Shown here piece after piece: positions 8,532 through 61,018 of a stretch of 64,000 bases of DNA; positions within the stretch are counted from its first letter, which is position 1, and each line of letters starts with the position of its first letter. The stretch lies in the NCBI GenBank assembly GCA_030424715.1, contig JAUHWH010000005.1, positions 124,001 to 188,000 on the forward strand, given 5' to 3'. Source of the stretch: Bdellovibrionia bacterium. GTDB taxonomy: Bacteria > Bdellovibrionota > Bdellovibrionia > Bdellovibrionales > JAGQZY01. Both the position numbers and the translations under genes were made by a program. Under the pieces are notes generated by a model, which was not told the DNA's origin, ran no database searches, and worked only from the letters and a program-made list of their open reading frames with translations.

Positions 8532-9433
8532 AAATGGTAAGCCTTGTCTTTCTAATGCTGGTTCAAGTCAATTTGGAGGCCAAAGAGATCGCCATCAGTT
8601 TCGATGATGCACCTCGAAGAATCACGGGGCACTTCACCCGCCTCGGTCGAGCCCAAGCCCTGGTCAAGCAGCTGAAAGCCGCAAAGGTGGATGCGGTTTT
8701 TTACTGTAACAGCAACAGCATTAACAAAGACACGGCCCAGATTATCCAATTGTACAATGATGCTGGCTTTAAGATTGCCAATCACACTCACTCCCATCCC
8801 GACTTCAATAAGCTGAGCTTTAAAGAATACAGCGAGGATTTTTTAAAGGCTCACGCGCAACTCTCCAGTTACTCGAACCACGCCCCTCTGTTTCGGTTCC
8901 CTTATCTAAGAGAGGGCAATGAAGTTAAAAAACGCGATCAGATGCGCGAGCTGCTCAAGAAAAAGGGCTACACCAATGCCTATATCACTGTCGATTTTAA
9001 CGACTGGCACCTTGAACACCTGTTTCGAGAGTCTTTGAGTGCGAAGCAAAGTGTGGATTTACAAAAACTGAAAAAACTTTATCTCGATTTAGCCAAAGAG
9101 TCGCTAGAGCACTATGATCAACTGGCCGTAAAACACCTGGGGCGTTCTCCGAAGCACGTTTTGCTCTTGCACGAAACCGACTTGGCGGCACTGTTTATCA
9201 AGGACTTGGTCTCTGCCATGAGATCTTGGGGCTGGAAAGTGATTAGCTCTCGTGAGGCCTACACTGACGACATTGCCTCATACCAAATCCAGCGCACACT
9301 GGGCAACAATCCCGGCCGCGTCGGCGAGATCGCATTAGACGAGGGGCACCCCATGAAAGACATCTGGGCCGACAGCACCAACACCCAACGAATGACCCGT
9401 CGCTATCAATCCGAAGTCTTGGGACAAAAATAG
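8528..9433 (+). CDS. Polysaccharide deacetylase (NodB-like, CE4), exported
   Basis: The 301-residue protein has a short signal (MKMVSLVFLMLVQVNLEA) and a NodB homology domain: motif 1 ISFDDAP (catalytic Asp plus metal Asp), motif 2 HTHSHPDF (metal-binding histidines, HTHSH), motif 3 RFPYLREG, and a distal LLLHETD giving the last histidine. Such enzymes remove N- or O-acetyl groups from peptidoglycan or other polysaccharides; predatory Bdellovibrio uses enzymes of this family to mark prey wall. The protein continues about 40 residues beyond the domain with a basic tail. Translationally coupled to the SGNH lipoprotein by a 4-base overlap. A weak hairpin (ATAGAA/TTCTAT, 9430-9446) overlaps the stop. 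Confidence 0.88.
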   Translation: MKMVSLVFLMLVQVNLEAKEIAISFDDAPRRITGHFTRLGRAQALVKQLKAAKVDAVFYCNSNSINKDTAQIIQLYNDAGFKIANHTHSHPDFNKLSFKEYSEDFLKAHAQLSSYSNHAPLFRFPYLREGNEVKKRDQMRELLKKKGYTNAYITVDFNDWHLEHLFRESLSAKQSVDLQKLKKLYLDLAKESLEHYDQLAVKHLGRSPKHVLLLHETDLAALFIKDLVSAMRSWGWKVISSREAYTDDIASYQIQRTLGNNPGRVGEIALDEGHPMKDIWADSTNTQRMTRRYQSEVLGQK

Positions 9434-9603
9434 AAAGACCTTCTATTTCATCGTCCCCTCTATGGCAAAAAAAGACAGAAAGATTTTGGGTTCTATTTTA
9501 TATTTGGGACGAAACTTTCAATCAGTCAGCTTTTGGGAACGCGAGCTCCTGATCTCACTGGGTTCTTTCTATAATTTGTAGCCAGACTGTGGACGACTAA
9601 GCG

Positions 9604-9719
9604 TTTGTGGATGCGGGCTCCTGACGGCGACATGCTTTAGCTGTACAGCTAGAGCATGCCTTGGCCCCTAGCTGGGGTCGCCTGCGGCGAACGCATCACG
9701 CTCCCCAGACATCCACAAA
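9604..9719. other. Cloverleaf-like structured intergenic element
   Basis: Nested inverted repeats enclose about 116 bases: outer TTTGTGGATG (9604-9613) with CATCCACAAA (9710-9719), then GATGCG with CGCATC, then GGCGAC with GTCGCC. Inside sit two hairpins: a 28-base palindrome centred at about 9645 (arms CATGCTTTAGCTG and CAGCTAGAGCATG) and CCCC-TAGCT-GGGG at 9665-9677. This could be a structured RNA, a REP/MITE-like repeat or a recombination site. No gene boundaries support one reading over another. The same gap (9434-10022) otherwise holds only the hairpin repeats listed separately. Confidence 0.55.
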
Positions 9720-9726
9720 ACCTCAC

Positions 9727-9735
9727 TTATCCACA
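9727..9735 (+). promoter_or_regulatory. Perfect DnaA-box sequence TTATCCACA
   Basis: Exact match to the high-affinity DnaA box, 8 bases after the cloverleaf-like element. A second exact copy lies at 10866. There is no AT-rich unwinding region or dnaA/dnaN nearby, so a replication origin is unlikely; a titration site or chance are the alternatives. Confidence 0.3.
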
Positions 9736-9826
9736 GATCTGTTTGAAAATAAAAAAGAGTCTACCTGGTTGTTTCGCAACACTAAAATTCAGTCACAATC
9801 CGAGAAGCTGAGCCAACCACCAAGCT

Positions 9827-9855
9827 TGTCACCCTGAGTGAAACGAAGGGTCTGT
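9827..9855 (+). repeat. Short hairpin repeat, copy 1
   Basis: Form TGTC-ACCCT-gagtgaaacga-AGGGT-CTGT. The ACCCT/AGGGT arms pair fully. It shares the TGTC lead, central GAG...CGA and trailing CT with the four other copies within 900 bases, while the arms differ. Confidence 0.6.
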
Positions 9856-9872
9856 AACTGATTAAACGTACC

Positions 9873-9903
9873 TGTCGTCTTGAGGCGCAGCCGAAAGATC
9901 TGT
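9873..9903 (+). repeat. Short hairpin repeat, copy 2
   Basis: Form TGTCG-TCTT-gaggcgcagccga-AAGA-TCTGT, with an additional inner GGC/GCC pair. Same layout as copy 1, 18 bases downstream of it. Confidence 0.6.
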
Positions 9904-9929
9904 CGCAAAGAATGGCCAATCTTTCCTAT

Positions 9930-9957
9930 TGTCGTCCAGAGCGCAGCGATGGACCTA
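9930..9957 (+). repeat. Short hairpin repeat, copy 3
   Basis: Form TGTC-GTCC-agagcgcagcgat-GGAC-CT. The arms are GTCC/GGAC, again different from the other copies but self-complementary. Confidence 0.6.
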
Positions 9958-10022
9958 GCTTGTTAATGACAAGATGATAAAGCTGTTTTAGCCTCATCTT
10001 ATTATTTGAATGGGGAGGATAT

Positions 10023-10520
10023 ATGAAATCATTTGTGCTGTTTTCTTTAGTTTTGCTGAGCTTGCCAGCATTTTCAGAATTGAGTCCAGAACATGGAGAT
10101 TTTGCTACTTACAAAGCCACTAGGCCTTCAAGTGAGCACGAGGAAAAAAGAACTTTAGAAGAGTATGATGAAGAATCTGATCGCTTCAAACAGGTGATTT
10201 ACAAAACAAAAGATGGGGAAATTACAGTTCTCAGTGAGGGTTGGGAGACAAAGTCCTTTTTTGAATTTGTCTATGTTTCAGATCTCGAAGAAAGATGTTC
10301 AAGCCAAGGTGGTGAGATTGAAACATTAACCGTTCCTGCGGGTACTTTCAAGACCTGTAAAACTAAAAAGACAAATGGTGGAGCTATTCGTTACAAGTGG
10401 GTTGCAGAAGATGTGCCGTTTGGAATGGTCCGGTCTGAGAATTCTTCAATTTATAATCCTACTCGGAAACATATAAAAGAGCTGATCTCTTTCGGTACTG
10501 AAACCCCCGAAGAAGAGTAA
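10023..10520 (+). CDS. Secreted protein of unknown function
   Basis: 165 residues with a clear signal peptide (cleavage after AFS, residue 18). The mature protein is acidic and charged, with two cysteines (ERCSSQGG and FKTCKTKK). The C-terminal pattern LTVPAGTFKTCKTKK followed by YKWVAEDVPFGMVR is typical of periplasmic beta-barrel-like domains in which a W...VP-G-V element closes the fold (DUF3108-like); that relation is tentative. Ribosome site GGGGAGGA lies just before ATG 10023. The gene sits in an islet of hairpin repeats and has lower GC than the operons on either side, which suggests recent acquisition. Confidence 0.72.
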   Translation: MKSFVLFSLVLLSLPAFSELSPEHGDFATYKATRPSSEHEEKRTLEEYDEESDRFKQVIYKTKDGEITVLSEGWETKSFFEFVYVSDLEERCSSQGGEIETLTVPAGTFKTCKTKKTNGGAIRYKWVAEDVPFGMVRSENSSIYNPTRKHIKELISFGTETPEEE

Positions 10521-10535
10521 TCCACATATTAACCA

Positions 10536-10592
10536 ATGGCCTATAAAATAACACCTTCAGTTTTTTGATTGAAGACTGTAGTTACTGGCCAT
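10536..10592 (+). other. Nested hairpin after the secreted-protein gene
   Basis: ATGGCC (10536-10541) pairs with GGCCAT (10587-10592), and inside it CTTCA pairs with TGAAG around the loop GTTTTTTGAT. It could act as a terminator for the gene ending at 10520, but there is no T-run after the outer stem. Confidence 0.35.
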
Positions 10593-10630
10593 TCTTTCAT
10601 AAAAATTGCCTACCCATTATTTCGTGGAAA

Positions 10631-10658
10631 TAGGTACTTCGCTACGCTCAGCACGACA
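10631..10658 (-). repeat. Short hairpin repeat, copy 4
   Basis: On the minus strand: TGTC-GTGCT-gagcgtagcga-AGTAC-CTA. Arms GTGCT and AGTAC pair with one G-U. Inverted relative to copies 1-3. The rest of the gap 10521-11068 holds copy 5, one DnaA-box match and no supported gene. Confidence 0.6.
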
Positions 10659-10684
10659 GGATCGAAGTCCCAATATCTACAAAA

Positions 10685-10714
10685 GAGATCCTTCGGCTTT
10701 GCCTCAGGAAGACG
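10685..10714 (-). repeat. Short hairpin repeat, copy 5
   Basis: On the minus strand: GTCT-TCCT-gaggcaaagccga-AGGA-TCTCT, with inner GGC/GCC pairing as in copy 2. Same orientation as copy 4. Confidence 0.58.
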
Positions 10715-10865
10715 GATGTTATTTCAGATTAAAATCGTCAACTCAGACTTAGGGGCATATCTTGGAGTCGTAGCCAACCAATCCCGCAGCGTAAAAGGAT
10801 TTAGGGAATTTTGGGGTAGGTGTGGCTACCTCAACTACAGATATATGTTGAGTGGTTCCCAGTAG

Positions 10866-10874
10866 TTATCCACA
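10866..10874 (+). promoter_or_regulatory. Perfect DnaA-box sequence TTATCCACA
   Basis: Second exact match in the islet, about 1.1 kb from the first and about 195 bases before the next gene start. Function uncertain; see the first copy. Confidence 0.28.
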
Positions 10875-11068
10875 TGGCAACAAAAACAAGAAAGAGGTAT
10901 CTCCCTGGAGAACTTTTGGGCGTTGCTGTAAAATCTGCAAGAATCTCGGCTGAAATGAAAATAAGGGCTTCTCGAGGCGGCATGAACTTTGTAGTATAGT
11001 GACGTGTTTGGGCCACTGGATTTGACGATTGGGATGCCTTTTCAGTGGAAATGTCGAGAAAGGGAATA

Positions 11069-60656: not shown

Positions 60657-61018
60657 GGGGGCGTAATGGCTTCGACGTGGATTTTGAAGCTTAAGGAGCA
60701 TGCCGAGGTTGCATGGGGACCTCGTTAAAAACGTGCACTCTTTTTATTTGGCGAAACTTTCGCTACACCAATAGCTGCCTAATAAGTAGTTTGATTGGTC
60801 ACTGAACTTCTCGTTGATGGGTCGAGGAGGTAGGTGTCACCCTAAGCCATCTCGATTAACAAGTGTCGTTTCGAGCTTGTTGATTTAAATCTTTCGGAGC
60901 ACGCCTAGCAGAGTTTGTCGATGGAAGCTGCTAGGTTCAACAAACATCGACTAAGCGTGTAGCCTGCCTTAATGTGGAAAGTTTGCGGACCCGGGTTCAA
61001 CTCCCGGCGCCTCCACCA
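60657..61018 (+). ncRNA. ssrA: Transfer-messenger RNA (tmRNA)
   Basis: The tRNA-like ends are complete: 5' GGGGGCGTAATGGCTTCGACG and 3' with GTTCAACTCCCGG T-arm and a CCA tail. The seven-base acceptor stem GGGGGCG/CGCCTCC pairs with one G-U, which fixes both ends. Between them lies a coding stretch closed by TAATAA (60780-60785). The best 10-residue tag reads GETFATPIAA starting at GGC 60750, with TA at -5/-4 as in other tmRNAs; a 15-residue reading from GCA 60735 is possible. tmRNA rescues stalled ribosomes with SmpB. The 3' end is a common integration site for islands. Confidence 0.94.

Follow-up and report, generated by a model that had tools for sequence, protein, structure and literature searches.

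The analysed window comprises 64,000 nucleotides (C17:124001-188000) of the 3.13-Mb, 18-contig genome of a Bdellovibrionia bacterium. Within it, a secreted-protein gene is flanked by five short hairpin sequences, three on the plus strand on one side and two on the minus strand on the other (Table 1). All five hairpins listed in the initial annotation are present. The TGTC start ascribed there to every copy is found in hairpins 1 to 4, and hairpin 5 (10686-10714) starts with CGTC. The arms of the stems differ between copies and remain complementary, as had been described; the arms GTGCT/AGTAC include one G-T pair. The locus as a whole is one of three transposon-like cassettes that have the same ends and carry different cargo genes.

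Table 1. Features of the cassette locus, in coordinates of the window.
Feature	Position	Strand	Description
Target-site duplication, left copy	9552..9560	.	ATCTCACTG, 9 bp; 8/9 match the right copy; likewise in the two other cassettes
Cassette left end (LE)	9561..9921	+	tip GGTTCTTTCTATAATTTGTAGCCA..CTGTGGA, inverted TGTGGA/TCCACA motifs, then hairpins 1 and 2
Hairpin 1	9827..9853	+	26-nt form; arms ACCCT/AGGGT; loop GAA; 38.8 bits
Hairpin 2	9873..9901	+	28-nt form; arms GTCTT/AAGAT; inner stem GGC/GCC; loop GCA; 33.2 bits
Hairpin 3	9930..9956	+	26-nt form; arms GTCCA/TGGAC; loop GCA; 41.3 bits
Cargo gene	10023..10520	+	165-aa protein, N-terminal signal-like sequence
Hairpin 4	10632..10658	-	26-nt form; arms GTGCT/AGTAC; loop GTA; 42.3 bits
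Cassette right end (RE)	10668..10898	+	holds hairpin 5; tip AGTTATCCACATGGCAACAAAAACAAGAAAGAGGT
Hairpin 5	10686..10714	-	28-nt form; tag CGTC; loop AAA; 36.2 bits
Target-site duplication, right copy	10899..10907	.	ATCTCCCTG, 9 bp

The five copies share the layout (T/C)GTC-5 nt-GA-inner stem-triloop-inner stem-GA-5 nt-CT. All of them have GA...GA inside the outer stem, followed by an inner stem of 2-3 bp and a 3-nt loop, and both 28-nt hairpins have one extra base on each side of the inner stem. With DNA folding parameters, four of the five form an outer stem of 4-5 bp, then an internal loop (2x2) and an inner stem of 2-3 bp closed by a 3-nt loop, and one folds differently; the single-strand folding energies are ordinary (z -0.92 to +0.72). 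In the 2x2 internal loop, GA invariably faces GA, an arrangement that would be compatible with sheared G.A pairs in tandem. The inner part of the hairpin is often GCGAAGC, a DNA mini-hairpin of unusual stability.

Using a covariance model built from 29 hairpin copies (28 distinct), we detected further copies across the source genome: 60 matches at E<=1, 56 of them at E<=0.01. Over the full window, the five hairpins, all of which had also been used to build the model, score E-values of 1.7e-9 to 6.5e-7, and the next match has 0.006. An exact pattern for one sub-form of the hairpin occurs 20 times in the genome, and its reversed control does not occur. Among the 29 aligned copies both sides change in six of the seven pairs, and the alignment contains 18 cells with two-sided change against 5.3 after shuffling, a value reached by none of 500 shuffles. 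The compensatory change proposed in the initial annotation is thus borne out. Neither a lack of further copies nor a loss of pairing, which would have spoken against that proposal, was observed: there are 60 copies and their arms covary.

To describe the variation among copies, we parsed 63 genome matches (the two weakest of 65 were omitted), of which 59 could be used after four of odd length had been dropped. The outer stems of the 59 copies are paired in 256 of 295 cells, compared with 234.1+-2.9 in shuffled data (maximum 244 in 2000). All five outer pairs are intact in only 26 copies; many genome copies are therefore decayed. GA is retained in 58/59 copies on the 5' side and in 58/59 on the 3' side; the third loop base is A in 57/59, and the loop reads GNA in 40/59. 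The inner stem varies as GC, AT and CG pairs, with one more base per side in the long class. The GTC tag is found in 55/59 copies, preceded by T in 21, C in 7 and G in 1 of the 29 aligned copies, and the tail is CT in 53/59 and CC in 5/59. Stem pair 2 is T-A in 53/59 copies of the source genome, and pair 1 is A-T in only 9/59.

Some hairpins of the source genome lie in or beside larger repeats. Three of them form a tandem array of ~41-bp units (L063:2993-3103) with altered inner stems (GAAC/GTGA, GAAT/GTGA). A hairpin is found at the edge of a 1.2-kb duplication of 87% identity (L072:3243-4468 and L074:1380-2577). A 0.7-kb repeat with 86-88% identity (L054:4579-5280, L069:5804-6501, L071:3-759), two copies of which lie near contig ends, is possibly an insertion sequence or another assembly-breaking repeat.

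Hairpins of this kind could act as RNA: once transcribed, the stem-loops would determine the mRNA ends, the stability or the regulation of the neighbouring secreted-protein gene. Folding with RNA parameters does give the expected structure in all five window hairpins, at energies that are likewise ordinary (z -0.86 to -1.75); G-T pairs are present among the stems of genome copies, and hairpin copies flank genes. We nevertheless consider such a role improbable: the hairpins occur on both strands around one gene, a terminator-like site is absent from 9400-11050, the hairpins have no Rfam match, and a genome of the same genus (G001) is free of them. Readings of the hairpins as an RNA family, as terminators or as promoters found no support in the searches. 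The sole Rfam match in the window is a tmRNA gene (60657-61018, RF00023), distant from the hairpins.

An all-against-all comparison of hairpin loci revealed the cassette, the ends of which are sharp. The left end is shared by the window and a second locus of the source genome (L059, contig C13) over 362 bp at 92%, and its tip also occurs at a third locus (L061, contig C13). The right end extends over 232 bp at 96.6% between the window and L059 and at 78% between the window and L061, which has a diverged version of both ends. The middles of the window and L059 cassettes are unrelated. Read inward, the cassette tips, GGTTCTTTCTATAATTTGTAGCCA..CTGTGGA and ACCTCTTTCTTGTTTTTGTTGCCATGTGGATAACT, form an imperfect inverted repeat. 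Directly outside the three cassettes lie 9-bp near-duplicates, ATCTCACTG/ATCTCCCTG, GCTCCGATT/GCTTCGATT and GTCCATGTG/GTCCATATG, each with one mismatch in nine. At one common boundary the duplications match in 24 of 27 positions, and random triples with the same offset freedom reach at most 19 in 3000. The cassettes thus combine the (imperfect) terminal inverted repeats and the target-site duplication by which non-autonomous transposons are recognised. Both cassette ends also contain repeated TGTGGA/TTATCCACA motifs (window 9587-9613, 9710-9736 and 10864-10873). TTATCCACA is identical to the DnaA-box consensus, and the motifs may be transposase or DnaA sites.

The three cassettes span 1338, 2522 and 1336 bp. 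Their cargo consists of one ORF in the window, ORFs of 348 and 165 aa at L059, and one ORF of 216 aa at L061; judged by eye, all four start like signal peptides, the one at L061 from an internal start. The protein encoded in the window cassette weakly matches a DUF3108-like family (PF21347, E 9e-4, below the cut-off), and the other three cargo proteins have no Pfam match. No transposase is encoded inside the three cassettes, and a scan for the tips in 619 kb of the genome's own sequence, overlapping stretches counted, recovered no parent element.

Hairpins 1, 2 and 5 occupy corresponding places in all three cassettes, partly decayed at L059 and L061, and hairpins 3 and 4 are exclusive to the window cassette among the three. 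The surroundings of hairpin 3 recur at two other loci (L066, L051), and the module of hairpin 4 at four (L066, L051, L072, L074). The initial annotation had noted a flip of hairpin orientation around one secreted-protein gene. The flip is present and is explained by the location of hairpins 1, 2 and 5 in the symmetric inverted ends of the cassette; the cassette itself, with its terminal inverted repeats and target-site duplication, had been missed.

It is possible, at somewhat less than even odds, that the hairpins are passengers which inserted into an ancestral cassette and that a cut-and-paste transposase moves the cassette by way of its terminal repeats. The clear 9-bp duplication, together with the terminal repeats, fits double-strand transposition, and the majority of the 60 hairpin copies lie outside cassettes. 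Insertion as passengers accords less well with the presence of hairpins at matching positions, at both ends, in all three cassettes. A further 390.7 kb sampled from the source genome also contained neither hairpins nor cassette tips, hairpin-free tips included. This alternative concerns the cassette only and is compatible with our preferred explanation of the hairpins, set out below.

The distribution of the hairpins among related bacteria is patchy. At E<=0.01, the host family has 56 copies in the source genome, none in the same-genus genome G001, 39 in G002, and none in G003 and G004; in the host class, 10 of 143 genomes carry the hairpin. Judged by record titles, the motif is found in more than 15 phyla, in at least 119 stretches from other bacteria. 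The titles among the matches listed include Nitrospirae, Chloroflexi, Acidobacteria, Bacteroidetes, Lachnospiraceae, Planctomycetes, Omnitrophota and Ignavibacteria, as well as Gemmatimonadetes, Armatimonadetes, Patescibacteria, Fibrobacter, Alphaproteobacteria, Helicobacter, WOR-3 and others. The pattern used across phyla has 19 fixed bases, with the core fixed and three bases of each arm free, and about two matches to it are expected by chance in the whole collection. Among the matches listed (119 loci), the free arm bases are complementary in 122 of 151 copies, compared with 67.9+-3.6 and a maximum of 81 in 2000 shuffles, and the first stem pair is A-T in most of the 151. That more than 15 phyla share a nearly identical hairpin has to be explained by a single conserved enzyme or by frequent transfer.

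Selected binding sites of a host chromosome protein, such as gyrase, IHF or similar, are a very unlikely explanation of the hairpins. Roles of this type are listed for GTAG REPs in the parts of two papers drawn on here (PMC3733652, PMC6006769). The hairpins are unlike a housekeeping site in being patchy among close relatives and in varying from 4 to 815 copies within one genus.

The REP-associated tyrosine transposase envisaged in the initial annotation was not found in the source genome by a search with PF01797 (Y1_Tnp). In the host class, Y1_Tnp is present in 116 of 143 genomes and in 8 of the 10 that bear hairpins, and is therefore not enriched in the latter. None of the 30 best host-class Y1 loci has a good hairpin nearby (best 13 bits). 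Conversely, a search for Y1 genes near hairpins with home-made profiles at 174 loci (55 from the host class and 119 from other bacteria) yielded one marginal match, at L209. Among the matches listed, Y1_Tnp occurs in 31 of 39 hairpin genomes from other bacteria. Y1 loci of other bacteria have a hairpin at E<=0.01 in 3 of 30 cases in one set and in 7 of 41 in another, the latter including L209, which was picked because of its hairpins.

L209 and a second locus, L300, both belong to Hymenobacter, and at both the hairpins adjoin the same kind of gene, in similar surroundings and on opposite sides. The kinship of this gene to REP transposases appears in matches to NF047646 (E 1e-13) and PF01797 (E 1.6e-4), both below the cut-off, and residues H112, H114 and Y178 are invariant at 62 of 62 loci. 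The hairpin is found in all 101 Hymenobacter genomes, with 22,877 copies in total and none in the reversed controls. Genomes with an orthologue of the Y1 gene (65) have a median of 240 hairpins, compared with 89.5 in the 36 genomes without one (Mann-Whitney p 2.7e-7); the correlation also held with an earlier pattern that required the bulged form. In a PGLS regression on a recA tree of 100 genomes, which omits G192 as having no recA match, hairpin number is associated with the orthologue (p 0.0024) and with any homologue (p 0.0004). Based on one gene tree and one trait, the support from this regression is modest.

The orthologue loci, of which the 60 best-scoring out of 65 were used, contain 42 hairpins against 11.6 expected, and 100 recA loci contain 1 against 17.0; for the expectations, sizes were rounded and all loci were given one length. 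The recA loci are a weak control, because recA may be a cold spot. A hairpin lies within 100 bp of the Y1 gene at 14 of 60 loci, and a spacer ~1.1 kb away is occupied at 15 of 60. The adjacency is therefore unspecific, and we do not treat it as strong evidence. These data make the Hymenobacter HUH/Y1 gene a candidate for the cognate transposase of the hairpins. A homologue of the candidate was found in one of 13 host-class genomes (G110, which carries one hairpin), and none was found in the source genome. At three other Hymenobacter loci (L325, L456, L474) the hairpins form pairs whose partners have an identical enlarged loop, which suggests that a pair moves or converts as a single unit.

In our preferred explanation, to which we assign a probability of about 0.6, the hairpins are TGTC/CGTC-tagged REP-like residents or relics, and hairpins 1, 2 and 5 were built into the ends of a non-autonomous cassette. 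The hairpins would be recognised as folded single-stranded DNA, through the shape of the stem-loop and the fixed GTC, GA/GA and CT letters, with the sequence of the arms being irrelevant. Most likely, an HUH/Y1 tyrosine transposase acting in trans would copy or move them. Cleavage by REP transposases takes place at CT, close to the hairpin. The 60 copies of the source genome would be residents or relics, the transposase being absent; they look like post-spread residents because the genome has no Y1 transposase and a genome of the same genus is hairpin-free. Hairpins 1, 2 and 5 would have become part of a transposon-like, non-autonomous cassette, in both of its inverted ends, and the cassette would have inserted at three places, carrying different secreted-protein genes. 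To our knowledge, Y1 enzymes are not expected to produce 9-bp duplications, and the cassette therefore needs another enzyme. Single-strand recognition, the enzyme, a part of the hairpins in cassette movement and their function in the source genome are inferred. A bolder proposal, that TGTC/CGTC hairpins have their transposase in the NF047646-like HUH/Y1 protein of Hymenobacter and became working ends of a gene-moving cassette in Bdellovibrionales, seems to us rather doubtful.

The kinship with short REP-like repeats suggested by the initial annotation can be made more precise: among known repeats, the hairpins come closest to the CGTC/TGTC-tagged REP super-family (Di Nocera 2013, PMC3733652). 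Di Nocera, De Gregorio and Rocco describe CGTC repeats, often with TGTC, in five phyla, and the sections of their paper that we draw on present them as apparently without a dedicated transposase, leaving their mover open. The hairpins resemble this super-family in the unpaired CGTC/TGTC tag at one end, the short stem with complementary variation, the small loop, and the tens to hundreds of copies in several distant phyla. According to the same sections of PMC3733652, a transposase is absent nearby in the species surveyed; the source genome is similar in this respect, whereas in Hymenobacter the number of hairpins is statistically linked to a Y1 gene. The two differ in the tail (CT here, mostly CCA in the super-family), in the first stem pair (mostly G-C in the source genome; the super-family has complementary A-T residues at stem positions 1 and 2), and in the GA/GA inside the stem with a 3-nt loop. 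The stem here has 5 bp, two G.A and 2-3 bp with a loop of 3, whereas that of the super-family has 8-9 bp with a loop of 4-5, and a match between them depends on counting G.A as paired or on rereading the loop. Copies here cluster both in tandem and facing inward, and their spacers are conserved, whereas the super-family occurs mainly as head-to-head dimers. Because their tail is CT and not CCA, we place the hairpins as a relative outside the four published CGTC families. The text of PMC3733652 makes no mention of Bdellovibrio or Hymenobacter.

The hairpins are also similar to GTAG REPs and their RAYT enzymes in having a guide-like tetranucleotide 5' of the hairpin foot and dispersed copies, as far as the relevant parts of Nunvar 2010 (PMC2817692) and PMC6006769 describe them. 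The tag is (T/C)GTC here and not the GT[AG]G guide of RAYT-borne REPs, the tag with which the main TnpA_REP subclasses are associated in the part of Quentin 2018 (PMC6006769) used here. GTAG REPs, according to the same partial sources, have an HUH/Y1 enzyme (RAYT), whereas the source genome has no Y1 gene; a REPtron, in which a RAYT gene is flanked by the repeat, is accordingly absent from this genome, which lacks Y1_Tnp. The literature searched contained no description of this cassette, nor of a transposase acting on TGTC/CGTC repeats, and searches by sequence strings returned nothing relevant. MITEs and mobile insertion cassettes have terminal repeats and a target duplication without a transposase of their own, insertion cassettes carrying cargo instead. 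Unlike these, the cassette described here has hairpins built into both ends, and it places the hairpins within a gene-carrying mobile unit of a Bdellovibrionales lineage. The correlation in Hymenobacter points to a testable gene for the movement of CGTC repeats. The hairpins are therefore a relative of a known kind of repeat, the range of which they extend, and the new links are the candidate enzyme in another phylum and the gene-carrying cassette.
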